Shown in pieces: positions 637 to 64,000 of a stretch of DNA of 64,000 nucleotides; positions within the stretch are counted from its first letter, which is position 1; every line of letters starts with the position of its first letter. The notes beneath the pieces were generated by a model. It saw only the letters and a program-made list of their open reading frames with translations. It did no database searches and was not told the DNA's origin. A program made the translations under genes and the position numbers. This DNA is from Halichondria panicea (lineage: Eukaryota; Porifera; Demospongiae; Suberitida; Halichondriidae). The stretch is taken from contig NC_087380.1 of assembly GCF_963675165.1 (NCBI RefSeq), forward strand, positions 1,603,803 to 1,667,802, read 5' to 3'.

Positions 637-3600
637 ATGTCACTAAAAGCGGCCATTGTGATACTGGTAGTTCTGCTGGTGACCTTGTCAAGTGGTGAGT
701 GGTTGGTGACATACAGCATATCAAATGCGATAAACACTTATACATGTCGATGCAGTCTGTGTATCAAGCTTTAGAGTGTTAAAGGCGTCTCCTACACTGT
801 ACACACACACACAATAAACATTGACACCCCACCTCCCACACACACGCTAGGAGCGGGGCTGGTTCTAAACCTGGACGAGCCCACTCAAGCAATACCGGGC
901 AGTGTGCGACTGAACGTGAACGGATCTCGTACTATAAGCTTGGTGGGGGGAAGCTCGTACGTCATTAGTTGTCAACTCCCCTCTGGCGGCTTCCAACAAT
1001 CACAGGTACGTAAATAGGTGGAGTTTTATATCGTCAGAGTTAGTTAAAGGCACATCATTTCTGATTACGGTGTCTTACATTACACATCACCAGGAGTGTA
1101 TGAAGAGGAGTATGCGACTCCCACGCACATTCCATTCTACATCTAGGACTGATAAATGTGGGCTGGAGGTACAAACCACAACAGACCATGTGCATGATGC
1201 TGATACCACTACACCTACGCACCCACTTAAGATGCGGTTTGATAGTGACGTGGTATGACATACTCATACCGTAACCTGGTTTACACTACAACTGCTACAA
1301 TTGGATACTCCTCTTCATACACTCCTGACATCACATAACACTTCACTGTGGTGTACAAAGCAAATTTCTCATCAGTTTACAACAATTGTTTCCATGTACT
1401 GTAATTTTTTGTACAGAGATCGAAGGAAAATCTATGCTAACAAATGTCATAACTCAGAGGAGGTACGACACGCGTGCCTCGATTAGGCTAATTGCCTCTG
1501 CAATAACGTTGAGCGTGGGCGTAATTATGCCTCGATTATCTACCCACGCTCAACGTTATTGCAGAGGCAATTACAGTAGAACCTCGATTATCCGGCCCTC
1601 CATTATCCGGAACCTCGATTATCCGGCTTGGCAGTTTTCTTTTTAATCAGATTAAATAAAAAAAATGAAAAAAAATGGGCGTGTCCCTCAAATGCGCATG
1701 CGCGTTGCAGCTGTTACCATGGAGACATGCCTGCTTATCTTCTGCGCATGCGCAGACAACCATATGGCACTGCTGTTTATCAATAAAGTGGGTGGATCAA
1801 GGCGTGGTTTGTCTATTCGATTATCCGGCATATTCACTTATCCGGCCTGCTTCTGGAACCAAGGTGTCCGGATAATCGAGGTTCTACTGTAGCTTAATCG
1901 AGGCACGCGTGTCGTACCTCCTCTGGTGAGGATCTACAACTGTAGTAACTACAGACAGTTTTATTCTTGCAACTGTAATGTCCAGAGCTATTCTTGCAAC
2001 TGTGGTGTTATTCTTGCAACTGTAATGTCCAGAGCTATTCTTGCAACTGTGGTGTTATTCTTGCAACTCAATGTCTAGAGCGGAAGTACCTGTCATGTGA
2101 ACAATTACTAACAAGATTCTGGCCCAATTAAACAAATAACCACTAATTGATCTCATTGGTCAACAGCTGTATAGAAAAATATCATACAGCACCAGGCATG
2201 CACAGTTTTCAAATTTTTTGTTTGTTTTTTCATTTGTTCAAGAAAGTAAGTAAAGAGAAAAGAGCCACTCAAAGCAATGACAGAAACACAAAGCTGCTCT
2301 CCAACAAGCTAAGATAGCTAAGCTCCATGGGCGTGGTTTAGATACATTTTATCCAAGAAGAGCTTGCAACTCCAGTAAGGGGCGTCGAATGGTCCCAAGG
2401 AAGCTCTTGAGCATCTGTAGGAGTCGACGTGTTGCTCAACTAGCTCTTTGACGGCTGCAAAATCCGGCATAGTCTTGTTCTTTTTGCAGTCTGCATCGTG
2501 AATTGAATTGTTGCTAGGGGGAGGTCCCTTTATAGTGCTGCGGTCACGTGGTATAAGTTAGATTATGCCACACCTCATTTGGAGGAAGTGCACCCCATAT
2601 ATCCTCTTAGGTGTGGTATATCCTATACATCTTGCAAACAAAGGCTTTGTTCTCGAGTAAGGGCTAGTTTTGCTTACCAGTACATTGAAGGCCATTGCAG
2701 TCTCTCCAGAATCAGGAATAGCAAAATATGTTTGTAATTATACTTTGCCTTGTAGTAGCTGCAAGAAGCTGCAAACTACAAACCAGTTAATGCACCGTTT
2801 TACGCGAGGCATTAACTAGTACATATACAGCTCTGGTAGGTAATCAAAACCTCAATGTTAAGGTAACCAGTGTGTCATCTATGATTGAACCAGAGATAAA
2901 GGAAAGAGAGAGATTGGAAACGGAAGTACCCTCAAATGAACATCCGCTCTTCCTCGCAGTTCAATCGAGGCTATCTTTAGCAAGCCATCTGTAAGGGGTG
3001 TGGCTTGCGAGGTAGCCAAACTGATGCCTATTTCTACACACTGTGGAGAATAAACCACTAGCAGATGTGCTTTTTCTGTACAGCCCACTGATCGATCTAT
3101 AGCTATTTTAGAAGTTACAACCAAGACGCTTATATGTTATAGCAATCAAAAACCCTAAAATATAGCACTTTGAAGCTTATAACTTGACTTGAATGTCTCC
3201 TTTTACTGGGTGTGGTCAGTCATGAGCTCTGACTATACATGGCTTACAGAATAGGCGTGTTATAAATTGCTGAAGGAGATGATGTCTCGAGGAAACACAA
3301 CTTTTTTATTTCGAGCGAGTTACCCGGCAAAAAATGGGACAAAAACGGATGGTTTTCGAGGCCTCTGTGTAGAACCAATGTTAAATTGTCACGTGCATCA
3401 CTTTCAATCTCTCATCCATGATTGACCATACACAAATACTTTACTATAATTGGAAAGCCAAGAATGCAAGCTTGGTGACGACTCTAGCATTTTTATGTTG
3501 TACAGGTTTGGTTTAGGGATGGCTCTGCTGTGGAGATCAGAGTGATGGGCAATAGGACAATGACAGCTGGCGTGTATGCTATATCGGAGAACAGCAACCG

Positions 3601-6600: not shown

Positions 6601-6668
6601 ACACACACACACACACACGCACACACACACACACACCATACACACACACACACGCACGCACGCACACA

Positions 6669-6725
<57 letters not shown>

Positions 6726-9700: not shown

Positions 9701-12700
9701 TAGCAAATTCACTAACATTCGGGTTCTCGTTGGATTTACCCCTCTGTCTTTGTTGGCCAATTTAACGGGGTCCTGGCACAACCTGTTGCTGATGACTCCA
9801 GGTACGTATTGTGAACAGATATCTAACCATCTCCACAAATGACCTCACTGCAGGTATTGTTATAAAAGTATAGTGTGGGCAATAATCAGTACAGCATGCT
9901 TACCAGCAATCCTAAATTCATTCTTTCGTGAATGACGATTCAAAATTTTCACGGCATTTCTGTAAGTGCAAACAAAGACAATGCAAAACTTCAAATACTC
10001 CTCTAACAGTATATTAGCAGAATATATTCAACTAGCCCTTTTTAGAGATGAAAAAAGGAGACAAAAAACACTCCTGAAATACTTTATTAGTATGAAAGTT
10101 TCACTTGTATCATTCAAAAAGTAATACTTACGCAAAGCACTAGGACCCAAGTATACAGTTTGACACAAGTACAAACTGCAAATCGGCTTTACGTACATAT
10201 GTGCTAGAGGGAGACATAATTTTGACTATCACCTTACCCTACAAAACTGGCCTATTATTCTGCTTCAACTCTACTGAAGTGAGTTTCTAACTTACCAGGT
10301 ATGAATACAGTTAAGCCACGGACATCTGGCCTAACCCAGAAGTCTAAGTTAGACTCTAACAACGTCTGCAAGAACTGAGTCAGAGAAAATCTTTGTTACA
10401 ATCCCGCCAGAACGTGATTACGTAACAAGGCAAGGAGTGTTTCAACGGATATCATTGAAATTGTCGTTCGTTTCCAATCCCTCCCTTTTCTATCTATGGT
10501 TAAAGACTCTTTAACCCATCATTCTCGACTCTCAAGGTCGGGCATCTGTTTGCCTTTTCTACCTGTATGGTTTTATGCTGTTTGCTCTTTTGTTCCTTTT
10601 TTTTTCTTTTGCTCGCCTAACTAGATAGGATAATACAAGGTATCAAGGATCCACCACTATAATATTAGGACATCAGATGCCAACCTTTTTAAAGATTAAT
10701 TTAAGTGAGCATTCCGTTTGAGCTAGTAACGCAAACAGTTGACACAATTTATCCCACACAAATGATACTTTTTGTATACCCTCAAACGCACACACACACA
10801 CACACAGGCAACCCAGTGGCCATTGCTACTGTTCCCACCCTCTCCCTCACTCTTGGCAGTCAAACCCTTTTTCATGCCTTGATAACCTTTGTGTCAGGTT
10901 CCCCACATCCTACTATGGAACAGATCACATGGACAGTGAATGGAGCTCCCTCAACCGTCACTGGCCACGTCTTCCAACTGCCCCTCAATATTAACTGGGA
11001 CCACGCAGGACTGTATGTGTGTAGTGTCACCACTGCTCAAGGAGCTGCTACCGCTGAGTTCACAGTCACTGTCAATGGTAAGTCTTAGCACATAAATGAT
11101 TGTTGCCAGTGGGTGGCTTCTCTGTATGTATATAAGGAGGCGGCTGTACGATACTGTACTGGGTGCCTTATTTCTAACGTGATGCTAGCTATACAACCTC
11201 CCCTCTCAGTGCAACCCCAGGTGACCCTGTCCCCCGCGACTGTACCCCCGGTAGAGAAAGGCGGCTCCTTCACACTGACCTGTGCTGACCGTGAGGGTAC
11301 ACCCCCTCCAACCTTTGAATGGAGTAGAGACAATCAAGTCATCTCAGGTACCCTCCATCCTCCTAGCAGATCAATTTATATACTTGTACACTGTATTAGT
11401 ACACTGTATCAGTACACACAATTCTGTTGCCTCTTTTATGTAGTAAATAGGCCTAAGAGGTGGTTATTTTTTTCCCAGTGGTAGTTGTTTTTGTCTAGTA
11501 AGAGGTATTGGAACCGAACAATTTTGTGTGAAACATTCCGCGTTTTAGAGTGTGACAAAAACTATGAAGGATTATATTTATAGTCAGTATCAAGGCCCCC
11601 GTAGTGCGTCTAAAAGTATACTAGAAGGACTATACTGCAAACGTTTATAAACAGTACATAGCATGAAGCCATTCTATATAGCACTTAATAACTAAGTCGA
11701 GCGATGTCCTTGCTGTTTCGGCTTCACAGCAGGGAAAGAGAAAAGTTGACATAGTTGACAGTTCAAGCTAAGTCAACGAAAAGAGACTATTTTTAAGACA
11801 ACGGACTTAGAGCCGCTAGTACCAACCACCACTGACCAGTGTGGGGCATATCTAATTAAATGCGTGTATACCGTATAGCGAGTATATTTCGAGAGGACAC
11901 ATTTTTACAGAAAGACCATTACAGTAGAACCTCGCTAATCCGGACAAAATGGCAAACTGAAAAAGAGGAGGGGCTGTCAGTAGAATGGATTACTGCGCAT
12001 GCGCAATGTAAATTGCTTACGTGAGCTGAATCAGCAATAATTTTACTGATAAACTGTCAAGACAATGGCCACTGCAAAGAAAACGAAAAGAGAGCTCACA
12101 AGACTCACTGTATTGGAGAGAAAGTTGAGATAAAGACTATTCTAGCTAGCAGCTTCCCTTCTGGCCACAGTAATATTATAATACATGTACAAAAGTGTAT
12201 TCGTTAATGATATTCATAATCAATTAATGACATCTGTTAATCTGGAAATTTCATGTATTCGGATGGGGTCTGGTTCCGCTCTATTCGGATTAGCGAGGTT
12301 CTACTGTAGAAAAGTTTTCGTGGTTTTAATTTTCGCGGAATAGCAGCCTTTTTTGCAGCATGCATGCAATATTAAATTTGTGGGTATAAATGTTTGCGGT
12401 ACATGCTTATAAGCAAAAACTGCGAACATTTTATACCTGCTACATATACAGGAGTTATAGAAGTTACCCCTCTCCCCCTCTCCTCGTGTAGGTGATGGTT
12501 CTCGTGTGCTCGTGACTGCCTCTGTTGAAGATGTTAGCTCCACCCTCACCATAATGTCAGTAGAGCTTGGTGATGCTGGGAGCTACAGTTGCACTGGGGC
12601 CAATGGAGCCGGAGCATCCACACGGCGCACTGACGTCATTGTGTTGTGTGAGTTGCTCATCTGTAGTAGTGGTCCATCACTATCAGTGCATACAATCACG

Positions 12701-14381
12701 ATTAGATCAGCGATTTCTTTTGAGCGCCAAATTTTGTAAAATTCACTTGTCATACCGGGGGGGGGGGTTAGATTTGCACTTTATCCCCAGTATAGGGGGG
12801 AATTTGTTTGACAAGTGCATAATAATATTGTGTTTTTTCGGATTTTCGGAGCTAACTTTAAGAGGCCATAATTTATTGAGTTTGTTAAAAACTAAAGGAT
12901 GCATCTGGTAGCTCTTTGATAGCTTATTAATATTACCTCCACCACAGATGCACCTATTCTTACTCCTATCTCTACTCGCACCATCTGGGTTGTTGGGCAG
13001 ACGCTTCTGCTGGAGGCTTCGTTAGTGGGGGCTGTCCCCCGGACCATCGACAGCGTGGCCTGGACTAAAGACGGTGCTAATAGCAGGGGAACCCCCTCCA
13101 GCGAAGGGTCAAAGTACACTCTAACGGTTCCGGGGCTGACTTTGGGTGATGAGGGCATGTACGAGCTGACACTAACCAATGAGATTGGAGCAGGAATTCC
13201 GCTATCATTCAGTATCACTGTTAACTGTGAGTATAATCGTAATAAATTAACAGGGGCTCATTGGAGTATCCCCATTACCATAATGACTACTGCATTACCT
13301 AGGATACAGTGATGCAAAATAACATTGTTGTTGCATTGCTTTAGCAATCTAACAGAGTTACAATCCCCCACCCCCATAGTACCTCCTGTGTACGTCTCCA
13401 TCACCAACTATCCTGTTATGAACTCACTAGTTGCCATAGACACCATCGGAGATACCACTGAGACAGCATTGACTTGCAGAACTAACTCAACTATTTGCTG
13501 TACAGGACAAGATAATCCCAATAGTGCCAATGGATTAGGAGATTGGCTATTTCCGAATGGAACAGTTGTCACTAGGAATCAGGACATTACTGATTCAGAC
13601 ACTGATCTACTGTACAGTGTTGGAGATACAGGTGCACTCAGACTCCATCGTCGAGGGTCTGTGTCAGGTCTCACTGGCTCCTACTGCTGTGTGATTCCTG
13701 ATAACACTGGAGTAGATGTGACATTCTGTGTGCAGTTAGGTAAGTGGGTCTGTGTTCTCATCCTGTTACTGTATTATCCTGTGTTTCAGTGACTGGAGTC
13801 ATCACTATATCTCCTCCCACTACAAGTAAGTAGTACTATCATTGAGATGAGCGCAGCATGTTTTGTGTTAGTAACAACTTGTGGGTTGTCTCATGCATTC
13901 CATTACAGCCTCTACTGATGAGAGCTGTTTCTGTCAGTGTCCCCAGAGTGACAACACTGGTGCTGTGGTGGGAGGAGTGGTGGCCCTGGTAGCAGTGATT
14001 GCAGTGACTGTAGTGATGGTGACGTACCTAGTGCTCCGGTATAAGAGAGGAGGGAAAATGTGAGTAGTTGGTTTAAAGTAGTTTGTGTCAGTAGACACAC
14101 TTTGTTCAGTGTAAACAAGCTTCATATGAACTGAAAGCTTTTATTGTCATAATCACTACTAAGTAATATCATCTGTTCTCTCCACACACAGGACTGTTCC
14201 TCGAGATATCTCCCTTACGGACCAGGGTCAAAGTGCAGCCGCTACCTACGAGACCGTCCTTGCCACTTATGAGGAGATCCCAGCCTCTAGAGAGGTCAAA
14301 GGTGACTACAGCTACACACAGAACAATGCTTACTCGACTGTGAGTGGGCGTGAGGCTCCTGCTGCTGGAGGAATACAATAA
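637..14381 (+). CDS. Gene A: Ig-domain transmembrane receptor with tyrosine-motif tail
   Basis: Eleven exons splice in one frame to 660 aa: 637-694, 851-1005, 3506-3695, 10808-11077, 11210-11347, 12492-12647, 12948-13226, 13380-13739, 13790-13825, 13909-14059, 14192-14381. Exon 1 is a signal peptide (MSLKAAIVILVVLLVTLSS). Ig domain 1 is split over exons 2-3 (ISCQ, VWFRDG, GRYTC). Ig 2 is exon 4 (GLYVCS), Ig 3 is split over exons 5-6 (LTCAD, GSYSC), and Ig 4 is exon 7, which lacks the second Cys (MYELTL). Exon 8 is the family's cysteine-rich Ig-like domain (TALTC, ICC, GDWLFPNGT, GSYCCVIP). Exon 10 carries one helix (GAVVGGVVALVAVIAVTVVM) and LRYKRGGKM; exon 11 is the cytoplasmic tail with YETV, YEEI, YSYT and YSTV. 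The last codons read GGIQ-stop where other copies read GIYDN-stop, from a small indel. The big intron 3696-10807 holds several transposon relics. Likely a plasma-membrane receptor signalling through phosphotyrosine; ligand unknown. Confidence 0.85.
1455..1925. mobile_element. Nested inverted-repeat element (outer MITE)
   Basis: Outer arms at 1455-1486 and about 1892-1925 are near-perfect reverse complements (GAGGTACGACACGCGTGCCT on the left). Inside them is a second hairpin with perfect 29-bp arms at 1491-1519 and 1543-1571, followed by a complete pogo-like MITE at 1574-1889. The element sits in intron 2 of gene A. No transposase is present, so it is non-autonomous. Confidence 0.8.
1574..1889. 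mobile_element. pogo/Tigger-like MITE with TA target duplication
   Basis: The ends are CAGTAGAACCTCGATTATCC and its complement ending GGTTCTACTG, flanked on both sides by TA (1572-1573 and 1890-1891). This end sequence and TA duplication are typical of Tc1/mariner-superfamily pogo/Tigger elements. At 316 bp with no transposase it is a non-autonomous derivative. It inserted into the larger hairpin element around it. Confidence 0.85.
1961..2075. repeat. Short tandem repeat, unit about 47 bp
   Basis: About 2.4 copies of a unit built from TTATTCTTGCAACTGTAATG plus CTATTCTTGCAACTGTGGTG, in intron 2 of gene A. The two halves of each unit also resemble each other, so it grew from a shorter repeat. 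Confidence 0.75.
2520..2640. repeat. Dispersed repeat family, copy 1
   Basis: The segment around GTGCTGCGGTCACGTGGTAT and ATATCCTCTTAGGTGTGGTA is repeated in diverged form at 44300-44400 inside the adhesion GPCR gene (GTGCTGCGGTCCCGTGGCAT). Both copies contain an internal AGGTGTGG/CCACACCT inverted pair. No coding content seen; class unknown. Confidence 0.5.
4015..4928. mobile_element. Large foldback element with long terminal inverted repeats
   Basis: The left arm (about 4015-4135) and right arm (about 4790-4928) are reverse complements over more than 100 bp, including ATACTGCAATCTGATTGGTT and repeated GAAAATCATGTACTT units. A second palindrome lies inside: 4604-4660 pairs with 4691-4748 (57-bp arms). 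The 914-bp element lies in the long third intron of gene A. No transposase is visible; small ORFs inside it look incidental. Confidence 0.8.
5419..5558. repeat. Inverted repeat (hairpin), arms about 50 bp
   Basis: Arms 5419-5468 and 5510-5558 are imperfect complements around TATGGAGTTTTGAGACCCTC and its mate. This is probably a short foldback element in the intron of gene A. Confidence 0.65.
5560..6330. other. Intronic stretch, no gene recognised
   Basis: Inside intron 3 of gene A. I see only a small hairpin at about 5762-5810 (CAGATGTATGCGGA and its mate) and short unconserved ORFs. Nothing resembles a known domain. Confidence 0.6.
6334..6377. repeat. Tight hairpin, 21-bp arms
   Basis: ATATGTGACCAACTTCCTCTG at 6334-6354 pairs with 6357-6377 with one mismatch and a 2-base loop. 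Probably the centre of a decayed foldback element. Confidence 0.7.
6600..6722. repeat. (CA)n microsatellite
   Basis: About 120 bp of CA dinucleotides with scattered CG, TA interruptions, in intron 3 of gene A. The Thr/His ORF that crosses it is an artefact of the repeat. Confidence 0.95.
6753..7427. mobile_element. MITE-like element with about 62-bp terminal inverted repeats
   Basis: The left arm 6753-6815 contains CTTTGCAGGCTATACTGCAA. The right arm 7365-7427 is its reverse complement with few mismatches (TTGTGGTTGCAGTGCTCTTG). The interior of about 550 bp is AT-rich and codes for nothing recognisable, consistent with a non-autonomous DNA transposon. Confidence 0.75.
7968..8006. repeat. Hairpin with 13-bp arms
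   Basis: TAGCAGGTCACTA pairs with TTAGTGACCTGCTA a few bases downstream. The flanks (AAGAAACCTG, CAGGTTTCT) are also complementary, so this is a small foldback relic resembling the hairpin at 8876-9044. Confidence 0.6.
8094..8805 (-). pseudogene. Crypton-type recombinase-like (DUF3504/ZMYM-QRICH1 family) fragment
   Basis: On the minus strand an ORF opens with MSFKFREPKDFSSLYHDC (8805) and runs through an acidic and Ser/Thr-rich stretch to 8350. The next segment lies in another frame (8094-8370): KSCTQWAVTLWIDWAMSRNK, FVLEVRKQRCKQPYPPNTLY, QLICGLQRHLKENGR. The pattern TQWA...W, then F..E.RK...YPP.TLY.L..GLQR is that of the N-terminal part of the domain shared by ZMYM2, QRICH1 and KCTD1-type proteins, known to derive from Crypton tyrosine recombinases. 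The two frames meet at a run of six A's (plus-strand T's, about 8353-8358), which points to a homopolymer frameshift. The catalytic C-terminal part is missing. It lies antisense in intron 3 of gene A: a dead transposon fragment. Assignment is from memory of the family pattern. Confidence 0.55.
8876..9044. repeat. Inverted repeat element, arms about 45 bp
   Basis: 8876-8920 (GACCATGTGTAGTACGGCTT) pairs with 9001-9044 (AAACCTACTACACATGGTCT). An inner pair (GCAAGTCACTAATTG and CAATTAGTGACTTGC) extends the foldback. Confidence 0.75.
9370..10780. other. Intronic stretch, no gene recognised
   Basis: The rest of intron 3 of gene A. A segment at 9644-9800 is open on both strands and bounded by a plausible AG and GT, but it breaks the frame of gene A (stop after about 19 codons in phase 1), so I do not call it an exon. 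Confidence 0.55.
11922..12306. mobile_element. pogo/Tigger-like MITE with TA target duplication, copy 2
   Basis: The ends CAGTAGAACCTCGCTAATCC and GATTAGCGAGGTTCTACTG are inverted repeats, flanked by TA at 11920-11921 and 12307-12308. It is 385 bp, without transposase, inserted in the intron that splits Ig domain 3 of gene A. Same superfamily as 1574-1889 but the interior differs. Confidence 0.85.
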
Positions 14382-27316: not shown

Positions 27317-27356
27317 AAATAACTGTTTTGGATGTGTCTCATACAAGATGCAAAGA

Positions 27357-49239: not shown

Positions 49240-49929
49240 ATGGAGCTTTTGCTTCTAGCATTAGGTGAGATTTGCTGACCTTTAGATATCTGTGCTGCTA
49301 CATTAAAAGGTCTATAATTATGCACACTGCTTATCTTTTGAAAGTCTGTTTTTTGTCTGTATAGTTTTCTGTTCTTTGTCAAAAAGTCAGGCTCAAACCT
49401 GTGGTGATATTGGGACCAATGTTGAGGGGTTCACTGAAAGCAGAGAACAGAAGTTCTTCCTCAACACTCAAGCTCCCGCTCCATGTGACGGGACAATCGA
49501 TCAGTTTGAGTACTGCTATTACGTAACTGATCAGCAATTAGGAGGTTATCTGTTCACATTTGCTGTCTATAGGGAAACATACCCAGGGAGTAACGCATAC
49601 ACTCCAATTTCTGATCCATTCAACACTGGTACATCTTTTTTCAACCAAGGAGGGGACAGTTTTACATGCAAAACATTTCAAGCTGATCAGACTATCAAAG
49701 TTCAAGCTGGTGATATGATTGGTGCTTGCATATATGACCCTCCAAATGAGAGTGGCTTTCTTGGTAGTAGAACGCAACTTGACGTAGTTGGACAACAAGC
49801 TGGTTCCGATCGATTCCTGATGTGTCAGCAACTGATAACTCAGGATGTAGTAACTCAGCTGTTCCTGATTTCGTTAGTGGTCTCAGTAGAGCGAACTCGT
49901 TCGTTATGCACATCTATGCAATTATATTT
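49240..49929 (+). pseudogene. Secreted or surface protein fragment, unknown domain, probable frameshift
   Basis: Exon 1 (49240-49264) plus the start of exon 2 (49365 on) form a signal peptide: MELLLLALVFCSLSKSQAQ. The following 140 residues (TCGDIGTNVEGFTESREQKF, DQFEYCYYVT, YLFTFAVYRETY, QAGDMIGACIYDP) resemble no family I can name; Cys spacing and the early position suggest an extracellular beta-rich domain. From about 49800 the open frame loses character, while another frame reads SIPDVSATDNSGCSN, AVPDFVSGLS, SFVMHIYAII up to a good donor at 49930. That looks like the real continuation, so an indel at about 49785-49815 is likely. No further exon of the same gene is clear; gene G's scraps begin 0.65 kb on, and G may once have been its 3' part. 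Confidence 0.55.
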
Positions 49930-50316
49930 GTAAGTCCTTCAAAATAGAACTATTCATTCATATTGTAATAATGATTCGTTCTCGAGTTTATATGGCTTAC
50001 TTTAAAGGACATTGCAGACTCTTCAAATTTGTGTGCAGCAACATCAGTGGATATAACTTAGCTATTCTATACTTAGTTAGCTCTGCATGTGCTAGCTATT
50101 GATAGCTGCAAGGGTAAGAATAGAGCTGCAAAGCCACACTGGTTCAGAGCTTGCAGCCATGCACTAATAATTATAGATCTTGAACTTTTGGCATCTCTTT
50201 CAGTAGGCATAACTCGAGAACGAAGCATTGTTTTGTAAATCCACGAAAGAAAACATGGCTAGAAGCCTATAGAAACTCTTACTTGCACTTCATTGATCAT
50301 TGAGCAGCTGTAGCAG

Positions 50317-50583: not shown

Positions 50584-52617
50584 TTGATCAAAAGACACAG
50601 GACTTGTGGGAGTGATGGAGTGTGGAGTGGGTCAGCTCCAACTAGCTTGTGTGCGTAAGTGGAATGGACTTTGTACTGTTTCTTAATTGCTTGAATTATG
50701 TTCACTATTTCAGGACCATGTTATGATTTACCATTGCCTATACTCATGGACTTGCTGACAGCAGACCTATTAATACCTTTGCTACCCACACTTGCGACAA
50801 TGGCTACACTCTCACTGGAGGGAGTTTCAGAGTTTGTCAGAGTGATGGGACCTGGAGTGGATCAGTTCCAACCTGTCAACATGAGAACAAACAAAATTAA
50901 TAATAAATATCTTTGTTAGTTTCCTGTGGCCCTCCTCCCTCAATTGACAATGGATCTCCTGGGACACCAACCAGCATAATGATCAGAGGAGAAGCGACCT
51001 ACACCTGTGACATTGGATTCATTTTGATTGGCTCTAAAACCATCACATGTTTGAGTACTGGAAACTGGAGCAGCTCACCATCCTGTCAGAGTAAGCGGTC
51101 ATTTTTGCATATATAATTTTTATCCCAACCCCTCATAGCCCCTCCCCCTGTGTACTTGTCCTTCTCCTTCACCAACTACTTGTCTGGGCTCTCTGAGATT
51201 CCCCTGTCCTCCGTGGGAGAGGGGAGTAGCCTCGTCTGTCATACTGACCTTGCTGGCTGCTGTGAGGGGAACACTGGAGATTGGTACTATCCTAATGGCT
51301 CTGTTGTTACGGAGGATGGAGTGTTGTATGTTAGCAGAGGTCAGATGAGTGTCAGTCTGATGATGAGTGGAACTGCTACTGCTCTCGGTGGCCTCTACTG
51401 TTGTGTGGTGCCTACCAGTGGAGGGAGGGACACAGCGTGCATTGTGTTACGTTAGTGACATAGTGTGGATTGTTATTGCAGTTCATACATTCCATGACAG
51501 CCTCTACTGATGCATGAGAGCTCTGTGGATGCTCCATCTACTGATGATAGCTCTATGGGTGCTCAGAGTGACAACACTGGTGCTGTGGTGAGAGGAGTGG
51601 TGGCCCTGGTAGCAGTGATTGCAGTGACTGTAGTGATGGTGACCTACCTAGTGCTCCGGTACAAGAGAGGAAGGAAAATGTGAGTTTGACGGTTTAAAGT
51701 GGTTTATGTGGTTTGTGTCATTAGTTTAAGTAGACACACTTTGTTCACTACCAAATGGAACAGTTGTCACTAGGAGCCAGGACATTACTGAATCAGACAC
51801 TGATCTACTGTACAGTGTTGGAGATACAGGTGCACTCAGACTCCATCGTCGAGGGTCTGTGTCAGGCCCCACTGGCTCCTACTGCTGTGTGATTCCTGAT
51901 AATACTGGAGTAGAACTGGCATTCTGTGTGCAGTTAGGTGAGTGGGTCTGTGTTCATGCATTAATTATTGATTATGCCACGTTTCAGTGACTGAAGTCAT
52001 CACTACCTCTCCTCCCACTACAAGTCAGTGGCACTATTATTGAGATGAGCGCAGCATGTATTGTGTTAGGTTGGTACTGACAGCTTGTGGGTTGTCTCAT
52101 GCATTCTATTACAGCCTCTACTGATGAGAGCTCTCTCTGTCCCCCGAGTGACAACACTGGTGCTATGGTGGGTGGAGTGGTGGCCCTGGTAGCAATGGTG
52201 GTGATCGCAGTGACTGTAGTGATGGTGACCTACCTAGTGCTCCGGTACAAGAGAGGAGAGAAAATGTGAGTTTGCCACGGTTTAAAGTGGTTTGTGTAGA
52301 GTCAGTGTCATTAGTTTAAGTAGACACACTTTGTCGTGTGTAAACAAGCTTCATGTGAACTAAACAAACTGATTGTCATAATTATACTACTAAGTAATAT
52401 CATCTGTTCTCTCACACACAGGACTGTTCCTCGAGATATCCCCCTTACTGATCAGGGTCAAAGTGCAGCCGCTACCTACGAGACCGTCACTGCCACTTAT
52501 GAGGAGATCCCAGCTTCCAGAGAGGTCAAAGGTGACTACAGCTACACACAGAACAATGCCTACTCGACTGTGAGTGGGCGTGAGGCTCCTGCTGCTAGAG
52601 GAATATACGATAACTGA
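50584..52617 (+). pseudogene. Gene G: recombined receptor copy with two membrane exons
   Basis: Pieces in order: 3' half of a sushi exon (to 50655); sushi exon 50714-50880 with an internal deletion, frameshift and donor GT changed to AT; intact sushi 50920-51090 (SCGPPPSIDNG); Ig-like exon 51139-51450 (LVCHTDLAGCC, YCCVVP); membrane exon 51501-51679 with an early stop (STDA-stop); only the 3' half of the other Ig-like exon type, about 51749-51937; linker exon from 51987; second membrane exon 52115-52265 (GAMVGGVVALVAMVVIAVTV); tail 52422-52617 with YETV, YEEI, YSYT, YSTV, YDN. The second helix and tail are intact and match gene E. The order shows two different 3' ends fused by recombination. 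There is no signal peptide unless 49240 supplies it. It could still donate sequence to its neighbours by gene conversion. Confidence 0.8.
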
Positions 52618-53393: not shown

Positions 53394-53448
53394 GAAAATG
53401 TACATTAGTATGTGTTTGTTTGTGTTCTCAGGGAGTACCTTAGTAAAC

Positions 53449-54924
53449 TAGTGTTCAAGCTGGCGCTGTGCTAATGCCTCTCGCCATGTTTTTGCTTTCG
53501 CTCTAAAGTATTAGAGTGTTATTAGTTTCTATAATGAATTTTATATTAAAGTTAGCTTATCTATATAAAGTCACTGAGAAGAAATGACTTATTTACATAC
53601 ATCTATTGTTGTTATTTATTGTATTATGTAGCTTACCAGGACCTCAAGAAAGAAGAAAATTGATTCTTCCAGGATCTGTAGTTCAGTGTATATAATATCT
53701 AAGAAGAAAAGACCTGTGTACATGCATATTGTTATCTATATTGTTATATGGTAGTGTTTTGTGGTTTACCAGGCCCTCAAGACAAAAATGATTCTGCCAG
53801 GAGGATCTGGATCTTGGATATTATTTTCTCACACGTGGGGAATCTGCACTAGTCACACAATACGTCAAGATGACAGACACATGCACAAATCTCCCTATCT
53901 CATCCCTCCCCGCCCTTCTAGGTCGCCCTTCGATGCTATGGTCATGCTGTCAGCTGGATCGTTCTATGCATGGCCCCTCAAATTTCAGAATCAGGCTCCT
54001 AGTGGGCTGTGACGGGCTCGAGCTGGATGCGTCCAGGTTTAGATATCGCAACAGAGGAAATATCTCTCCCGGTGATGCATCGTGCAAACTATGCAACACT
54101 GAAGAAGAATCACCTTCACACTTTTTAGTAAGTTGCCCTGCTCTCTCAATGCGCAGACTTGCTCTCCTGCAGGATGCCCCATCCTGCATCAGTGTTCACC
54201 TCCCCCACGACTCAAGGGCACTACATGACACCCTCTACAATCTCCTGCAAGGCCTTGTCTGGCTGAAAGCTGCCCATGCGCAAGAGTGGCTCTTGCTCTT
54301 CATCAAAGATCTAAGGCAAACCCGCGCTGATCTCCTTCTCACAAGCACATTGGTTTAAAGCTCCACCCTCTTACTGCGTGTTATAATAATACCCATTTTC
54401 AATATTCTTTTTTGTCTGCCCAATGGGCTACTCTTCATTATTTGGAGGCTACAAAGAAGAAGAAGAAGAAGGGGAATGAGCGCGCATGCGCATTACATCC
54501 ATAGGAATAATTAAAGGGTGTGTCCAAAGAGATCAATTTCACAAATGGCTACTGCTAGCTAGCTGTTTTAACAGATATTTTCTGAGTATTGTAGCTAACA
54601 AAAAGCTAGCGCTTTAGTGCAAGGCTAACTCATATGTTGAATAGAAAGTTTGTGCGGACAGATGATGCTATGAAAGATTCTGAAGAGACTGCAACAGCCT
54701 TCAATGTGAGTCAAACTAGCCATAACTCGAGAAAGAAGCTTTAGTTTGCTAATCCACGAATCAAAATCCAAGAGAAGGTGGCTAGAAGCCTATAGAAGCT
54801 GTTAGTTTTCGTCGCATTGTAACCGTTGAGCAGTTATAGCTGGAATACACACACACACAGACAGACAGACACACACACAGTCAGCATTACCGTATCCCTC
54901 GTGCGGCTACGCCTCGAGGCATAA
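53449..54924. mobile_element. Transposon family X, copy 2, interrupted by a LINE fragment
   Basis: 53449-53814 matches 34335-34836 with internal gaps, and 54471-54924 matches 34837-35296 closely. The two halves meet at GGATCT/GGGGAATGAG, which is uninterrupted in copy 1 (about 34832-34846). Everything from 53815 to 54470 is thus a later insertion. Confidence 0.85.
53815..54470 (+). mobile_element. LINE 3' end, copy 2, inserted into family X
   Basis: The frame to the stop at 54358 contains GDASCKLCNTEEESPSHFLV, SCPALSMRRLALLQ: a CxxC...H....C zinc motif typical of the C-terminus of many LINE reverse transcriptases. A short 3' UTR follows, ending in an (AAG)n tail at about 54450-54470. It is strongly 5'-truncated and lies exactly at the site that is empty in copy 1 of family X. 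This is a different LINE family from 52955-53393. Confidence 0.8.
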
Positions 54925-55005
54925 CAACCTTAAAGGGCGACTTGGATTCGAAGCTAAGTAAGTGTCTACTTGGAATAGCTAGCTAGCTAGTAAAGCTAAC
55001 CTCGT

Positions 55006-55046
55006 GCATAGATACTATAAATTACTGTAATTTATAGTATCTATGC
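55006..55046. repeat. Perfect 19-bp hairpin
   Basis: GCATAGATACTATAAATTA at 55006-55024 pairs perfectly with 55028-55046 around a 3-base loop. Probably a foldback relic. Confidence 0.85.
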
Positions 55047-55604
55047 CTCGTGCCTGACTGACCTAGTACCTCGTACGTGCAGCCGGCTATTATAGTGTAC
55101 AAAACTTTCTGTACTATTGATAATCAACACCAAACACAGAAACTAGACAAAGTGACAACAAATAATGGCACAGTCACTCCATCATGGATATGAAACACTT
55201 CAACATCCGTCTATGCCTAGCGCCTACACTGTACTGTACGGCCGAGGATAAAGCTGCTCAAGATATAAGTGGTGAGTGTAATGCTTGTGCATATGTTGGG
55301 GGACTACTGAGCGTTGTACATATTAGGCGTACCCTAGGTACGTTTAAGGTACGGTATTAAAACTGTTTGCTCATTAATTATTCATGAGCTAGATCTAGCA
55401 GCTAGCTAGAGTGTTAGTCTCGCGCACCAGCCCCGAATATTTTCTATTTGAACGCTAGGTCGATAACATGGGTCTGGTGAACTTAAATTAATATCAACAA
55501 GTTGTGTTGACACGCCAAAAATTTCTTGGCGTGTTAACCGCTGCGGTCAATTAGAGGGGAAAAGAAGTTATGCCAAGCAGCCTCTTGTTGCCCAACTTGC
55601 TTAC

Positions 55605-55915
55605 AGTTTCCAGCTAGAGACAATAATGGCTTATTTATGCTCTAAGACTATCCCAGAAGATCACAGAAAGAGAGAGAAGTTCCATGGGTAGTAGTTGCAC
55701 AGAAGCAAGAGCTGAGTTGTAGCTTCAAGGATGTCTCCTTGGCTACTATCTCTATATAATAGATCTATACCAAACCAGCAATCCATATATTCAAGTGTCA
55801 GTACTGCATAAGATTTGATTTGCATCTTTTGCTCTGAGAACTGAATCCATTCTCTATTAAAACATAACTGCCTGGTTTCAGCTCAGTCTAGATCTTTCTA
55901 GTGACTCTAGTAGTT
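55605..55915. repeat. Duplicated 5' flank block, copy 2
   Basis: Matches 10-370 upstream of gene A. Here it is followed by an inverted copy of family X and, 2 kb later, by the start of gene H. Confidence 0.7.
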
Positions 55916-56905
55916 ATGCCTCGAGGCGTAGCCGCACGAGGGATACGGTAAAGCTGACTGTGTGTCTGTGTGTCTGTTCCAACTGTAACTGCTCAACGGT
56001 TGCAATGCGACGAAAAATAACAGCTTCTATAGGCTTCTAGCCACGTTCTCTTGGATTTTGATTCGTGGATTAGCAAACTAAAGCTTCTTTCTCGAGTTAT
56101 GGCTAGTTTGACTCACATTGATGGCTGTTGCAGTCTCTTCAGAATCTTTCATAGCATCATCTGTTCGCACAAACTTTCTATTCAACACATGAGTTAGCCT
56201 TGCACTAAAGCGCTAGCTTTTTATTAGCTACAAGAGTCAGAAAAGATCTGTTAAAACAGCTAGCTATAGTAGCCATTGTGAACTTGATCTCTTTGGACAG
56301 ACTTTTTAATTATTCCTGTGGATGCAATGCGCATGCGCGTTCCTCCCCACATGTTGGAGAATCCAGTGGCAGAATCAACTTACTTCTTCATGTTCTTTTT
56401 CTTGAGGTCCTGGTATAGCGGTAAGCCACAATACAATATAGACTAGATAACAATAGATTCATGTACACAAGTCTTTTCTTCTCAGTATTACCGTATTACT
56501 AGCGAGCATCAAACATTTGCGAACTTTACGAGGGTTGATCAATTCGCAACAATTAAATCCGCAAAACCTAAATTATTACTAGTAAATACACATGATCCTT
56601 TCCAGAACACAATAGTTAGATCGCAAAGGGTCAAATTTTCTGCTGATTTAGCTCATTCGCAAAGGTTTTTCACTCGCAAAATATTCTAGTAATACGATAG
56701 ATACACACTTTCTGCTTGTTTATATACTATACTGTCTGTGCTTAATTCTCTCTTACTTTGTGCCTTTGACAAACTCACAGTATGCACTATTAACTGTGGA
56801 CACCCCTTTCTTATGAAACAATCAAAGCACATTGCAAATTATTTACCTCTTCTATAACACTCTGAGCGAAAGCAAAAACATGGCGAGAGGCATTGGCAAG
56901 CGCAC
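55916..56905. mobile_element. Transposon family X, copy 3 (inverted) with a nested insertion
   Basis: Runs from TATGCCTCGAGGCGTAGCCG (reverse of the family's end) through GCATGCGCGTTCCTCCCC to about 56486, then resumes at about 56860 (CTGAGCGAAAGCAAAAACAT, GGCGAGAGGCATT). Between lies 56490-56700, an element with ends CCGTATTACTAGCGAGCATC and AATATTCTAGTAATACG, of the same family as the intron insertions of gene C. Confidence 0.75.
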
Positions 56906-57595
56906 GCTTGCAACACTTGTTGCTATAGCTTCTCTCCTATTCTTGCATGGCAAACACGTATTTTTGTTTTGTGAGAGTTTCCTGGCCTGGAACGAAAAAA
57001 CGCTTCGTGTAGCCCTCCAAAAGTATCCTATAAGAGCAAGAACACAGATCGAGCTATAGAAGTTTTTTTGGAAGTATAAAATTAGTTTTGTTGTTTCTAG
57101 TAACTTTATGATTCGCTCAGAGCTTCCACTGATGTTTTGAAGATTGATACTGCCATACAGATTGATACACCGATATATTTATCATGTATGTGCTTTCTAT
57201 CATGGTTTCACAAAAATCATGGTTTCACAAAAATCATGAATATTCATGAGTAAACTGTTTACCATAACTTTCAGAGTGTGTAGCTAGTACTGATATAGTC
57301 AGAATTGTGTACATGCAACTAACATGAAGCTGTGTACAGTATGCTGTAGCTAGCTAGAGTGTGTAAGAAACCGTTGTTGGTATTCAGTGTTCCATATGAT
57401 TAATGTCCCAAGCTACGTTAATGTCAATCTTTACATATTAGGGCTAGGCTGCCGTTGTGTGTGTGGGTGTTATCACAGTGTGGCTTGTGTGAGCCTCGAA
57501 TCCAGGCCGATTAAAATCGCACGCGTTAGTTTATCCTCCAGAATCTGGGGAATCCCCTTTTTTTTCATCAGCTTAGCTCTCTATTGCGTTGTTCC

Positions 57596-57913: not shown

Positions 57914-60900
57914 ATGCAGCCAATGGAGAGTTTGTTGACTGGTCTCCTCTTGTTTCTCTCCACTCACTGTCTCTTGGTGGATGCTCAAGGTGGGTGGTGT
58001 GTGTGGGTGTGTGGGTTCAAAGAAGCAAGGACATGTATGCGTGTAAGGTACTAATCTAGTAATGAGCAAAGGTGCAAATTCTAAGTTAAACAAAAGAGCA
58101 CATGCGGTAATAAAAGATAAAGAAAGTTAGTCCAGTTAATTAGGGGTACAAGGTGTGCCTCGGCCGACACCAGGTCCACTGTAGGAATGGTCGTCCTGAT
58201 AGCACGGCCCCGGGAGGACCGGTAGCCTCGCACACACTGTATGGTCGATCTTAGTAGACTGTACGATAATGAGCATCTTAGCTAGTTTATGACCTGGTGG
58301 TACGGTTGGTCCCATTTCTCCGCTAGGAGGGAAGCCAGTCTCTTGTAAAAATTAGCAGCTGATAGCCCACACTCACCACCCCCCTCACACACACTCACCA
58401 CCCCCCCACACACTCACCACCCCCCCACACACACACACACCCACTCACACACACACACACACAGGAGAGCCTATTGTGACTAGCCTCACATACAACGCCC
58501 CCACACTCACCCTAACCTGTTTGTCCAGTGGGGGGCCGGCCACTACTGTCGTGTGGCGTAGGAACTGCTCCCCCCTCACAATAGGCACACCCTCACAGAA
58601 CCTCACAGACAGTATTGCGGGGGCGTACACCTCCACCCTCACACTCCCCACACCAGCTGATGATGGTGTCTACAGCTGTACAGTGGAGAATAGGCGAGGG
58701 AGATCCAGTAGCACAGTCACTGTCGGAGGTATAGGGTGGGGTCAGGGGGTACAATTTTGACCAGCGTATTATTATCGTTGCTTCCTCAGATGATGTTGCC
58801 TTTGATGTCACCATCACTCCTAGTGAAGCCACACCCATTGCTGGTCGACCTTTGACCCTCACCTGCAGCCACAACAGTAGTGATGATCTCACCTCCGTCA
58901 GCTTCCAATGGTTGGACACACAGGGGACATCTGTCAGTAATAACTCCACTTTGACCTTTGACACTCTGAGAGAAAGTCAGCGAGAGTACTATTGTGTGGT
59001 TACCGTGGGAACTGAAGTCGGCTGTGTCGAGTATTATAGCAATGTACAAGGTGAGAGTACATGGACTATTATAGTAATATAACGTACGTATGATACTAAT
59101 AATATTATTTCTGCCCCTTTGTCTAGTTCCTGTGTTTGGTGTTAATATCAGTGATGTTTCTGGAACTGTTGGTATGGCAACAACGCTCAGCTGTACCCTC
59201 TCTGACTCCCCTGTTACCATGGCAATGTATCGTTTCTTCAAAGGGGGTGTTTCCATTGGTACTAGCTCCACCCACATGTATACCATCCCCATGGCTCAGT
59301 TGTCTGATGCTGGGAATGACTACACATGTGAGGTGGTCATATCTCTTGATTACCTTGACCTCTCCAGTCCCCTCACTCTGAGCAGCAACCAACAGGCCAC
59401 CATATCACTAACCAGTGAGTTTATTTAGGCTTAGTTTATACCTAGATGTGTCAACTTTTCTGTTAGTTTTTTTATACTATATAAGTACGTAAAAAACAAC
59501 AACACCATATATAGCGCACTAATAATTGACTGGCTATACTAATGTTAGCTATACTTATTAAGATGTTGTACATAATTATACTAATTTGCACCTTACTCTT
59601 TCTACAGTACCGGACCCCAGTATGTTCATCAGTGTGACCCCCTCCACCATGGACACCACCCCCTTCACTCCCTACACTAGCGTGGATGCCATTATTAACT
59701 GTGCTACCACAACCGTTCTCATACCTGGTGTGGATGCTATCATTGTATTACTAAGAGTGGAGAACGGTGTAGAATCAGAGGTGGTCAGCACAGCAAGGAT
59801 AACAGCAGGTCCAGTTGTGAATACATTGAATGTCTTTTTCCTACGATCGTACTCCCACTCTCCTGCTAGTAGGATGGCAGACTCTGGTAGCTATGTGTGT
59901 GAGGGAACCATCATTCCTGAAGATGCTGGACTGAGGCCCTTTATCACTGATGGTACTAGCAGGTCCACCCTAACAGCCATTGATGTTCTTGGTGAGTGCA
60001 TGTACCTTCAGCCCAATTGTGTGTTCTATCAAAACTTGTGCAAACACACACAATAGCACTGTCAATCCTATATAATTATGTACAACCTAGCTACTGGTTG
60101 TACTAATACATAAGGCTATGTAGCCCACGGTTTTTTGTCAACATAGGCTGTTTTTCGTCCCTCCGGTCCCATAACTTTGATCTGAGCATGTCATGTGATA
60201 GGGTTTGTCTAGAGATCTCATTGTTGAGCTTTCTAGTTATGGCCTAGGTTGCTGTTTTTCAGACAATTAATACATGCGGCTATATACATGTATAGCCGAT
60301 GTGGTCTTTTCAGGACTACATGTATGTATTTCACTCTTCTCTGTACAGATCCGATACTGGACATTGCTGTCACCATGGTAACTGGTCGTATACTAGACAT
60401 ACCTCCGTACAACACCTATGCTATCACTTGTACGGCTTCATCAAGAGTTCAAAGTACACCCACGGCCATCACCAAGACGATAGAGTGGAGTGTATCCTTT
60501 AACAGTGGAGCAGTTACCATGGTAACAGAGGGGGTGGTGACTAATCACCTCGCCATGGCTACTAGTTCCAGCGTCTTGAGTATAATGACAAGTGTATCTG
60601 GAGAGTATGAATACAGGTGTGGTAGCCAACTAGAGCTGGTGGGTGTGGCTGACAGTGTGGAGGGGGCGGTCACATCAAGTGTCACTGTGTATGGTAAGCA
60701 CACACACACACACACATACATACTGCCGCCCACTCCACAGGCCCCTCCTCTCCCACCATGCCCACGTCACTGACTGTATCCATGGTGAACCATGAGTCGG
60801 CCAGCTTCGAGTGGGTGGTGATGACTGTTGCCTATGACAACGAGAGTTACATAGTGACATATGGCCTCGACTCTAATGACCTCACCAACAGCAGTGCCAC

Positions 60901-60942
60901 TCAACCTGGCTCCAGTGACATCAGCCTCACCAATAGTGTAAG

Positions 60943-60980
<38 letters not shown>

Positions 60981-61147
60981 GGTGCGTGCGTGTGCTCGTG
61001 ATACACTATATACCCCTACCTTGCAGGTGTACAGTATATCTGTGGGAGGTCTACAAATGAAGACAAGGTATTATTATCGTGTGGTGTCCACCAACTCAGC
61101 AGGCAGTACCCAATCAGAGCTGGCCACCTTCAACACCACTGGTGTTG

Positions 61148-61182
<35 letters not shown>

Positions 61183-64000
61183 TGTGTGGGTGTGTGGGTG
61201 TGTGGGTGTGTGTGTAGTAGATTCCTAACAAGCACCAAGTCTCACTCCCTGGTAGTGTGTGTGTGTACATGTGCCTACTGTAGCACTGTTGTGTATGCTG
61301 CTTTGACCACTATACACTGCAGGTCCGAGTGCTCCCCTCTCCCTGAGCTACATTATGACCACACCCACTAACCACACCTTCTCATGGCTTCCTCCTAACA
61401 ATACTGACATTGCTGTAACCCAGTACACACTCACCTGCCAGGGAACACTCAGGTACACATTATTATGAATAATATGCTAATTTATAATTTTGCTGACAGG
61501 ATTGGGGACCCTCTGGATTCTATCGCCATAGTAACCGTCATGACCTGTGTGAACGCTGACCTCGTCCCTTGGGCCAACTACACATGCTTCGTGGTTGCCA
61601 ATAACAACAATGGCTCCTCCCCTAGTAGCAACGAGATCAGTTTCATTACTCCTGAAACAGGTATTCAATAACCTTAGCAACCAGCAATAACCCCTAGCTC
61701 ACGCACACATCACACTCACATTCCCTACCCCCCACAGCTCCTAGTGGACCCCCTGGTAACTTTTTTGCTGGCTTAAATCCTACCGGAGGGATAGTACCAT
61801 TCACCTGGACTTCACCACCTTCTAACCAAAGGAATGGATTCATCATTGCATACTCTCTGGAGTGTAGTGCAGGACCAACAGATACCGTTGTCACAGTGTT
61901 CCCGCCATCTCCTAACAACCAGTACACGGCCATCAACTACTCTGCCCTCACTACCTACACTTGTAGTGTACGAGCTAGGAACAGTAAGGGGGAGGGGCCA
62001 CCAGCCACACTGGACGTTACCACAGCAGAGGATGGTACATATCATGCATGTGATAGGTTCGTGACCATGTATTGACCTTTCACCCTGTAGTTCCTGGAGC
62101 TCCTCCGATGTCGTTCACTGCCACCGCTCGTACTAACGGGACAGTGCTCTTTAATTGGAGTCCACCCCCCTCTGCACAACAAAATGGCGTCCTCACTGAC
62201 TACACTTTGACCTGTGCCCCGCCACTTTCCTTCAACTATGGTCCTAATGAGGTGGGCGGGACTGGTGAGGGGTTTTCCCCTGCCACACGCTACACATGTA
62301 CACTCACTGCCAGCACAGCAATTGGAGCTGGTCCATCAGCCAGCGTAACCATAGTAACATGTAAGTATATTATTATTCCTAGAAGTTATATAATGACTGT
62401 GGCTCCTCCCACTTCCTGTAGTTCCGTCAGTACCAGCTGTGAGTGTCATCTCTCTATCAAGTACTCAGCTGGGGGTCAACTGGACCACACCCGTTAATGC
62501 AATCATCACAGAGCATGTTATATATCTGGATGGGGCGGAGTTTGGCCGCTCCCAGGGGTCAGAGTTCATTATCAGTGGTCTACGTCCATACACAGAGTAC
62601 AATGTGGGGGTCAGTGCTAGTAACGAGGCAGGAGAGGGATCAGTCAGCGAGGGACAGATTATCAGGACACTAGAGGATTGTGAGTGCACGGGTATCAGTG
62701 TGTGTATTAGGAGCCTTTGTGGATCATAATAATTATATAGCGTTCTTTATTTTATTTGAGTATTTCTTTTAGTGCTGCTCTAAGAAAACAATTAATTACT
62801 ATCGTTAGTTTGTGGAGCCTTTTATTGATCCATCATTATTACAGCCATCGTGTAGTTGTAGGGTTAGCAGCTTTCTTCTCCACCATCATAACTGTATAGC
62901 TGTTGAATCACCATCCCTATTACCCCCCACAGTGCCTGGGCGTGTGGAGTGTGCCCCTCGCTGGGTGTCTAGCTCCTTCACTTCTGTCACTGTACGTTGG
63001 GCCCCGCCTACTCAAGAGAACGGCATCACCCTCGCTTACCACATCCGATTGGTTCGTTATGGAAGCTCTGACTCCACCCCCCTGGCCGAGGCTAACGTGA
63101 CTAGCTCTGATAGGGAGGTGACACTGACCCCCAGTGATGACTTGGTGGGGGGTATCCCCTACACTGTCCAGGTGGTGGCTGAGAATAGCATCGGACGTAG
63201 CACTGAGATATGCCAATCCATTGACTTCATTGCTCAGCTTGGTGAGTTGAAATTGACTAGTAATAATTATCATAATTATGATATCTACCTAATCTAGTTT
63301 TGAAATTAAAACTATCGACAATAGTTACCCCTAGTCGTTGTGAAATGTCTCATTTTAAGAAAAAATGCGTGCTATAGCCTTCTTGTTTAATATCCCCCCC
63401 ACAGAGCCCCCGCCCCCTTCTGGCCTGGGGGTCTCACGTACTCCTGATACTATAACACTGTCCTGGGACGTGCCTACTCTACTGGAGGCTAGAGGCTACG
63501 TTAGCTACACAGTGACCTTTGGACCCAGTGTGGGAGCACGCAAGAGACGACAGACATCTGATGAATGTAGCGTGTCACCTTGTAATGTCCCCGTGGAGAG
63601 AGGGGGTGTGGTCATCAGCGGCTTGGACCCTGGAACGAACTATGACCTCACAGTTACACCGTCCAATGAGGAAAACATTACTGGAATGGCTGCCACGGCA
63701 ACAGCTCCAAGTAAATGAAAACACTTAATAATATCTTGTGCCGGTATAAATGCAATGTGCAGGATGGTGGTATTTTGCACATTATAGACAGCAGTCTTAC
63801 TACCTGTGTTCCTTGCCCCCCCCCCCCCCGTACAGCATTATTGTGTGCTCACCTATACAGTTTGTGACAGCTGTTCCATTTGACAACAGCTGTCACAACT
63901 ACATTGTACCAGTGCCGGGAGGGATGAGCACAGCATGTATTGTGTTAGGTTGGTGCAAACAATGATAGTCTCATGCATCCATTATACAGCCTCTACTGAT
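57914..64000 (+). CDS. Gene H: 5-Ig/7-FN3 surface receptor (3' end beyond window)
   Basis: Signal peptide 57914-57989 (MQPMESLLTGLLLFLSTHCL). Ig exons: 58465-58728 (LTLTCLSS, VYSCTVEN), 58790-59050 (LTCSHNSS, YYCVV), 59127-59414 (LSCTLSD, YTCEV), 59608-59991 (IINCATT, YVCEG), 60349-60693 (ITCTASS, YRCGS). FN3 exons: 60741-60937 with 61027-61147, 61323-61452 with 61500-61660, 61738-62034, 62091-62360, 62422-62679, 62933-63241, 63405-63710. FN3 hallmarks such as LFNWSPP, VNWTTP, VRWAPP, LSWDVP and the Y.V.V.A.N ends are visible. About 1222 codons lie in the window and every junction keeps phase 1 between domains. The window ends in an AG acceptor and GCCTCTACTGAT-like codons, the start of the membrane exon of genes A-G, so the same helix and tail probably follow. 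Ig plus FN3 ectodomains are typical of adhesion and guidance receptors. Confidence 0.85.
58375..58464. repeat. CA/CCACCC-rich simple repeat at a splice acceptor
   Basis: Repeated CACTCACCACCCCCC units followed by CA dinucleotides, running straight into the acceptor of the first Ig exon of gene H. Confidence 0.85.
60938..60990. repeat. (GT)n microsatellite at a splice donor
   Basis: GTGTGT run just after the donor that splits the first FN3 domain of gene H. Confidence 0.85.
61148..61216. repeat. (GT)n/GGTGTGTG microsatellite
   Basis: Second GT-rich run, directly after the donor ending the first FN3 domain of gene H. Confidence 0.85.
63785..63951 (+). pseudogene. Decayed second-type Ig exon before the membrane exon of gene H
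   Basis: GTGCCGGGAGGGATGAGCAC and CATGTATTGTGTTAG/GTTGGT match the end and donor of the Ig-like exon in gene D (24925-24960) and the intron relics in A, C, E and G. Upstream of it only a scrap remains, interrupted by a perfect hairpin (63862-63875 with 63885-63898). No phase-1 reading is open, so gene H probably splices over it. Confidence 0.6.
63862..63898. repeat. Perfect 14-bp hairpin
   Basis: TTGTGACAGCTGTT and AACAGCTGTCACAA flank a 9-base loop, inside the decayed Ig exon. Confidence 0.85.

Follow-up and report, generated by a model that had tools for sequence, protein, structure and literature searches.

We propose that the DNA analysed here, a stretch of 64,000 nucleotides (the window; C4:1603803-1667802, forward strand), is one cluster of a large paired-receptor complex on contig C4, in which related ectodomains would be joined to opposing phosphotyrosine outputs for use in immunity or allorecognition, and we give this reading a probability of roughly 0.6. 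The genome with which the window was compared comprises 131.5 Mb in 39 contigs of one assembly. Comparison of the window with itself revealed repeated blocks on the forward strand from about 13 to 52 kb, and its reading frames contain signal, sushi, Ig-like, helix and tail exons. Pfam domains in the window include 12 sushi domains in gene C, I-set in gene A and both Ig and FN3 in gene H, while an Rfam search of the window gave no match. The initial annotation had described the interval as a receptor cluster; this is confirmed, with the correction that features from outside the family, namely a GPCR of adhesion type, one RTK-type ectodomain exon and transposon-like repeats, also lie within it.

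The sponge origin of the DNA, claimed earlier, is borne out by a silicatein-type active-site motif found by a degenerate pattern search at three linked places within 11 kb on contig C2 (a longer pattern gave no match in the genome). All three translations contain CGASYAF in a cathepsin-like context, and the one that was tested had silicatein alpha as its best solved match (1.4e-11), with cathepsins behind. The silicatein active site carries a serine where that of cathepsin carries a cysteine, and these predicted silicatein-type genes support a siliceous demosponge as the host.

Genes A, C and E of the window are intact, being open throughout when spliced in silico with GT-AG introns only. Nearly all of these introns are phase 1, the exceptions being the helix/tail intron, which is phase 2, and one phase-0 intron within an Ig domain of A. 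Gene A (637-14381, on the forward strand like all genes and exons of the window described below) has 10 exons, encodes 648 aa in one ORF and contains Ig domains only. Its signal exon (637-694) is followed by Ig exons at 851-1005/3506-3695, 10808-11077, 11210-11347/12492-12647 and 12948-13226, a membrane-proximal Ig exon (13380-13739), a helix exon (13909-14059) and a tail exon (14192-14381); a possible 36-nt stalk exon at 13790-13825 would, if included, bring the product to 660 aa. One Ig exon of A submitted to Pfam matched I-set at 8.6e-6. Gene C (17762-22477; 16 exons, 1024 aa) joins a signal and 12 sushi domains, recovered by Pfam as 12 stretches (1.7e-92), to an Ig exon (21540-21905), a helix exon (21990-22131) and a tail exon (22282-22477). 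Gene E (27348-30449; 12 exons, 769 aa) has the same order with eight sushi domains, counted by exons, and Ig, helix and tail exons at 29454-29801, 29970-30117 and 30254-30449 respectively.

The other copies are broken, partial or at the window edge. Gene B (14717-16100, end approximate) has a signal exon (14717-14786), Ig and three sushi exons, and is without helix and tail. Gene D (22899-25454) runs through signal, Ig, sushi, Ig, helix and tail and is broken twice: its first Ig exon has lost 8 nt relative to the aligned B, and the reading frame of one sushi exon is disrupted; its tail, which is not in the set of 31 considered below, reads YKEI in place of YEEI. Gene F (30690-31500, limits approximate) is a relic of signal and sushi exons with a stop directly after the ATG, and two stray sushi exon copies, 96% identical, lie at 33567-34281. 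Gene G (50598-52617) is a relic mosaic of sushi, an Ig exon of the type found next to the membrane in D (IgD), a broken helix copy, an Ig exon of the C type (IgC) truncated at its 5' end, a helix and an open tail exon, with stops in one of its helix copies. Gene H (read here from 58366 to 64000) passes from Ig exons to FN3 exons and then to the first 11 bases of a helix exon; the rest of the helix and the tail lie past the window edge at C4:1667803-1668249, within locus L041 (C4:1667803-1675000). Pfam recognized Ig_2 in one exon of H (8.3e-11) and fn3 in three, and had no hit for a further Ig-like exon at 59562-60053; a signal exon of H was searched for and not found. The earlier division into intact copies (A, C, E) and dead ones (B, D, F, G) is thus upheld, with B classed by its missing helix and tail.

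Genes A, C, D, E, G and H share a helix/tail cassette under differing ectodomains, as the initial annotation had claimed. The window contains the tail exons of A, C, D, E and G; at the protein level the other four have 80-94% identity to the C tail. For the helix exon, A, D, E and G show 83-96% identity to C, with the second, broken helix copy of G left out of the comparison. That H would end in the same cassette was also correct, its tail matching the family tail at E 1.9e-32 with 90% identity. In front of this cassette stand Ig domains in A, 12 sushi plus Ig in C, eight sushi plus Ig in E, Ig, sushi and Ig in D, and Ig plus FN3 in H.

In A, C, E, G and H, the intron that precedes the helix exon contains the relic of an IgD-type exon, reduced to its 3' end, of which the membrane-proximal Ig exon of D is the living counterpart (3' end at 24924-24954). 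In A the relic is at 13844-13871, with relics of the same kind before the helix of C, E and G; in H it is at 63918-63966, is 87.8% identical to 24924-24972, is longer and lies behind FN3 exons. H carries a second, separate graft of the cassette, and the intronic relic of an Ig exon shows that there were at least two events in which helix and tail were placed behind other ectodomains.

The label Ig, given from the start to the conserved membrane-proximal domain, needs qualification, as nothing in Pfam scored above the gathering cut-off and the assignment comes from a motif and weak profile matches. In 14 diverse aligned copies the Cys, Trp, Leu, Gly and Cys of a Cys-Trp-Leu-GxYxC core are invariant and the Tyr nearly so, and further cysteines are also kept. 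A profile of the 14 matched 33 solved chains up to E 10 (best 0.0039), which are Ig-like by name rather than by individual check (NCAM, TIM, nanobodies, CD22, CSF1R and others); TIM-1 and TIM-4 were matched weakly, at 0.0067-0.015. The predicted structure was too poor for use (pLDDT 51.9), and no relatives were confirmed in viral and prokaryotic collections. We consider the domain a probable divergent Ig domain.

The genome-wide search with the tail sequence that had been suggested with the initial annotation was run with the exon from C. At E<=10 it gave 42 matches, with all 42 candidates scored; the 37 strong ones (E<=1e-20) comprise 36 on C4 and one on C5. The C4 tails form clusters at 275-322 kb (9), 1100-1145 kb (12), 1540-1668 kb (13) and 2.92-2.93 Mb (2), consistent with the earlier picture of tandem receptors, part intact and part dead, with a common tail; the genes are recently duplicated, and the tail bears tyrosine motifs. 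The C5 match is an isolated tail receptor (L045, C5:1665386-1668147) with Ig, sushi, Ig, helix and tail, and the region upstream of it is also similar to that in front of a C4 gene at 1.6 Mb. Two tail receptors at C4:2921839 and 2929999 have identical Ig exons and represent either a very recent duplication or a retained haplotype. Near-identical pairs of this kind would be expected if the copy number were partly an assembly artefact, with a second haplotype kept as extra copies; we regard this as very improbable, given that a single contig carries clusters in both orientations, separated by up to 2.6 Mb, and that the copies are several percent apart.

We read 31 tails, 30 from loci of the tail search and one from L045, of which 30 are distinct. 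All 31 are open and all keep YEEI. They have on average 2.7 YxxI/L/V motifs, and 28 of the 31 contain two such motifs at the wider spacing YxxI/L/V-x2-12-YxxI/L/V. A canonical ITAM (YxxL/I-x6-12-YxxL/I) was found in none of the 31 and neither was a hemITAM; ITIM-like motifs (I/L/V/S/T-x-Y-xx-I/L/V) occur in seven and are not a family trait, and ITSM-like matches occur in three. A reading as canonical ITAM or ITIM receptors was set aside on these counts. Phosphorylated YEEI is a high-affinity ligand of Src-family SH2 domains, and the genome contains three ORFs that combine SH2 and kinase domains in a Src-like layout, with single-ORF matches at C2:7.25 Mb.

The ectodomain extends well beyond the tail family, and the genome adds two features that the window alone could not reveal, its presence on receptor phosphatases and a concentration over several megabases of one contig. 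The membrane-proximal Ig exon of C has at least 150 matches (the best 150 of 297 candidates), and 141 of those listed are on C4, where the Ig exon is present at 331-481 kb in the absence of any tail match. One locus there, L039, reads from the Ig exon into a different helix, followed on the intracellular side by an I-set Ig and two PTP domains, the second of which is degenerate. The motif HCSAGVGRTG was read in L039, L043 and L044, with a Pfam PTP in L039 and L044, so that this linked class, to which the window genes do not belong, has the make-up of receptor tyrosine phosphatases, with an HCSAGVGRTG phosphatase behind a transmembrane ectodomain. In all 14 such loci fetched (13 at C4:331-481 kb and one on C1) IgC is followed by the phosphatase-type helix and I-set exons, the Ig exon being just 55-61% identical in three of the 14. 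The resemblance to the window genes is at the level of DNA: L039 and gene E are 90% identical over 949 columns spanning sushi and Ig exons including introns, the alignment stops about 90 bp before the helix exon, and between the helix region and 6 kb L039 has no match to the window. The phosphatase family PF00102 has at least 176 matches (the best 150 of 361 candidates), and by hand count 54 of the 63 PTP catalytic halves among the matches listed are on C4. The I-set exon linked to the PTP has 41 matches, 37 of them below 1e-28 (35 on C4 and two on C1). We also note a compact group of PTP matches at C4:4414767-4419330, apart from the other arrays.

The best matches of the L039 PTP among solved structures are PTPRS (1.7e-48) and LAR (9.7e-45), which in other animals are adhesion receptors. 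One explanation for the data is then that these are ordinary adhesion or tissue-organising receptors, an expansion, within this lineage, of LAR-like phosphatases with their partners, and have no immune function; both output classes could be parallel adhesion receptors. L039 does share tandem PTP domains with the R2A phosphatases, LAR and PTPRS. It departs from their Ig, FN3 and tandem PTP architecture in its sushi plus Ig ectodomain and extra intracellular I-set, and its class exists in tens of tandem copies. Tandem arrays with recent turnover, dead genes among them and exchanged ectodomains would be atypical of developmental adhesion receptors, and we consider the adhesion explanation rather unlikely.

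The ectodomain exchange can be followed in the IgC exon. A tree of 32 rows, 19 from tail loci and 13 from phosphatase loci (the phosphatase row L056, below 55% identity, was left out), requires seven changes of output class, at least five of them forced by well-supported branches, and rows of both classes occur in each of two deep clades; support is weak on 12 of the 28 inner branches. The classes are still clustered beyond chance, as only 11 and 9 of 500 shuffles scored as low. The IgD relic bears on how this arose. It is present at one junction in 14 of the 17 aligned IgC-type tail loci, as judged by eye, with L010, L014 and L027 having no relic or only a stub, and a relic probe matched none of the 14 phosphatase loci. 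Because 14 of 17 loci share the relic junction, a single fusion, with ectodomains exchanged among the duplicated copies later on, is the simpler account, and many independent fusions of tail and IgC were set aside. The class changes in the IgC tree may come from gene conversion after that single fusion.

Selection on the separate domains was summarized as whole-domain pairwise means of dN/dS, after removal of the rows that were present twice owing to the overlap of L040 and L041 with other loci, which shifted ratios by at most 0.01. Means were 0.44 for the tail (0.44-0.45), 0.42 for the PTP-linked I-set, 0.78 for the tail-class helix, 0.57 for IgC, 0.30 for IgD and 0.67 for the distal IgV; the value of 0.82 for the PTP-class helix is doubtful, having come from 16 rows, at least two of them stray, for 14 phosphatase loci. 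No domain mean exceeded 1 and the pattern is one of net constraint. The genes had been called fast-evolving, which is accurate for copy number and domain make-up but not in the sense of proven diversifying selection. Another possibility is that the locus is largely a birth-and-death graveyard, in which recombination in a repeat-rich region generates chimeras, most of them with little function. Of the eight genes in the window, four (B, D, F, G) are broken or tailless, and since 16.4-17.4 kb of the window matches 26.1-27.1 kb on self-comparison, a single block seems to have been copied to give B-spacer-C and D-spacer-E. However, the constraint on the tail and I-set exons, the open reading of every fetched tail with its YEEI, and the three fully open genes of the window make this explanation improbable.

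In the paired-receptor reading, the family consists of single-pass receptors with duplicated sushi, Ig and FN3 ectodomains built mostly from swappable phase-1 exons. One output class has a short tail with several YxxI/V tyrosines, the conserved YEEI being expected to recruit SH2 proteins once phosphorylated; in the other, tandem tyrosine phosphatase domains stand behind the same kind of sushi plus Ig ectodomain. On binding a ligand, the tail class would attract kinases, or the phosphatase would be brought to the contact, where it might dephosphorylate the tails. Related ectodomains would then signal in opposite directions through phosphotyrosine, much as paired immune receptors do. The paired receptors of vertebrates (KIR, LILR and others) have shared ectodomains with opposing outputs, ITIM tails being set against ITAM adaptors. 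The C4 family resembles them in its shared ectodomains and in the opposing outputs we infer for it; unlike in the vertebrate pairs, the phosphatase would be part of the second member. Should the two classes indeed counteract each other, shared ectodomains would here inhibit and activate through a construction other than the ITIM/ITAM design, and perhaps a far older one. A broader and more tentative proposal, which we hold as possible but doubtful, is that C4 harbours a multi-megabase complex in which one ectodomain repertoire, duplicating rapidly, is mounted either on a phosphotyrosine tail or, through exchange of exons, on a receptor phosphatase, with a kinase receptor array elsewhere on C4, forming a catalytic paired-receptor system and the genetic basis of sponge histocompatibility.

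By analogy of design, the closest known systems appear to be FcoR/fester of Botryllus and Alr of Hydractinia. In the available text on the Botryllus schlosseri fuhc locus, type I receptors mix Ig and sushi domains, FcoR tails have an ITIM, hemITAM or core YxxI/L/V, and uncle fester has its 3' exons in common with fester and an unrelated 5' half (PMC12065747). The likeness, compared by architecture only, is that of type I receptors with Ig and sushi at one locus; unlike FcoR/fester, the C4 family has up to 12 sushi domains, a YEEI tail without a canonical ITAM and an ectodomain that is also found on phosphatases, and it belongs to a sponge. Hydractinia Alr is described as one large interval with clustered intact and dead single-pass genes of the Ig superfamily (PMC11067881), and the C4 clusters of intact and dead single-pass receptors are similar, but differ in having sushi, FN3 and phosphatase twins. 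A phosphatase fused to a shared ectodomain is not described for FcoR/fester or Alr in the available portions of those sources (PMC12065747; PMC11067881), and the open-access literature, as far as its accessible text goes, yielded no equivalent system.

Sponges are reported to tell self from non-self grafts, and the aggregation factor is a candidate for sponge cell recognition (PMC5450542). That factor is described as an extracellular proteoglycan complex (PMC11999971), unlike the single-pass receptors of C4, and both are recognition candidates. We regard the C4 receptors, from their predicted products, as a good candidate for sponge recognition of self, non-self or microbes; the interval is bounded, the receptor family is defined, and the tail exon can serve as a countable marker. 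Perhaps the family is instead a germline-diversified set of pattern-recognition receptors for microbes or symbionts, with no part in telling individuals apart. This would fit with accessible reports that LPS-regulated genes of Halichondria panicea include Sushi and Ig domains (PMC8242945) and that other sponge immune receptor families are reportedly expanded, although phosphatase-linked twins would be unusual for simple pattern receptors. It is a possible but minority reading in our estimate, and the sequence does not separate microbe recognition from allorecognition.

Other genes are interspersed with the receptors of the window. An adhesion-type GPCR occupies 35846-47519, with a tandem array of sushi exons (about 18.5 units, period 220/436 bp, about 95% matches), further sushi exons and then 7TM exons, at 47.2 kb recognized by Pfam as 7tm_2. 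Sushi domains overall also occur off C4, among the best 150 of 4112 candidates. Dispersed transposon-like repeats, up to 97% identical and in both orientations, lie amid the receptor genes at 34334-35302 and 53446-56921. An ectodomain exon at 49307-49930 has 36 matches including itself, 35 of them on C4, and 34 of its 35 other matches are at C4:2.52-2.75 Mb, the site of an array of tyrosine-kinase-type domains (C4:2520661-2756279); kinase matches are also numerous elsewhere. The one array gene that was read (L042) has an ectodomain and helix beside the kinase. The window ORF at 49.3-49.9 kb is similar to this ectodomain and is apparently a displaced RTK ectodomain.
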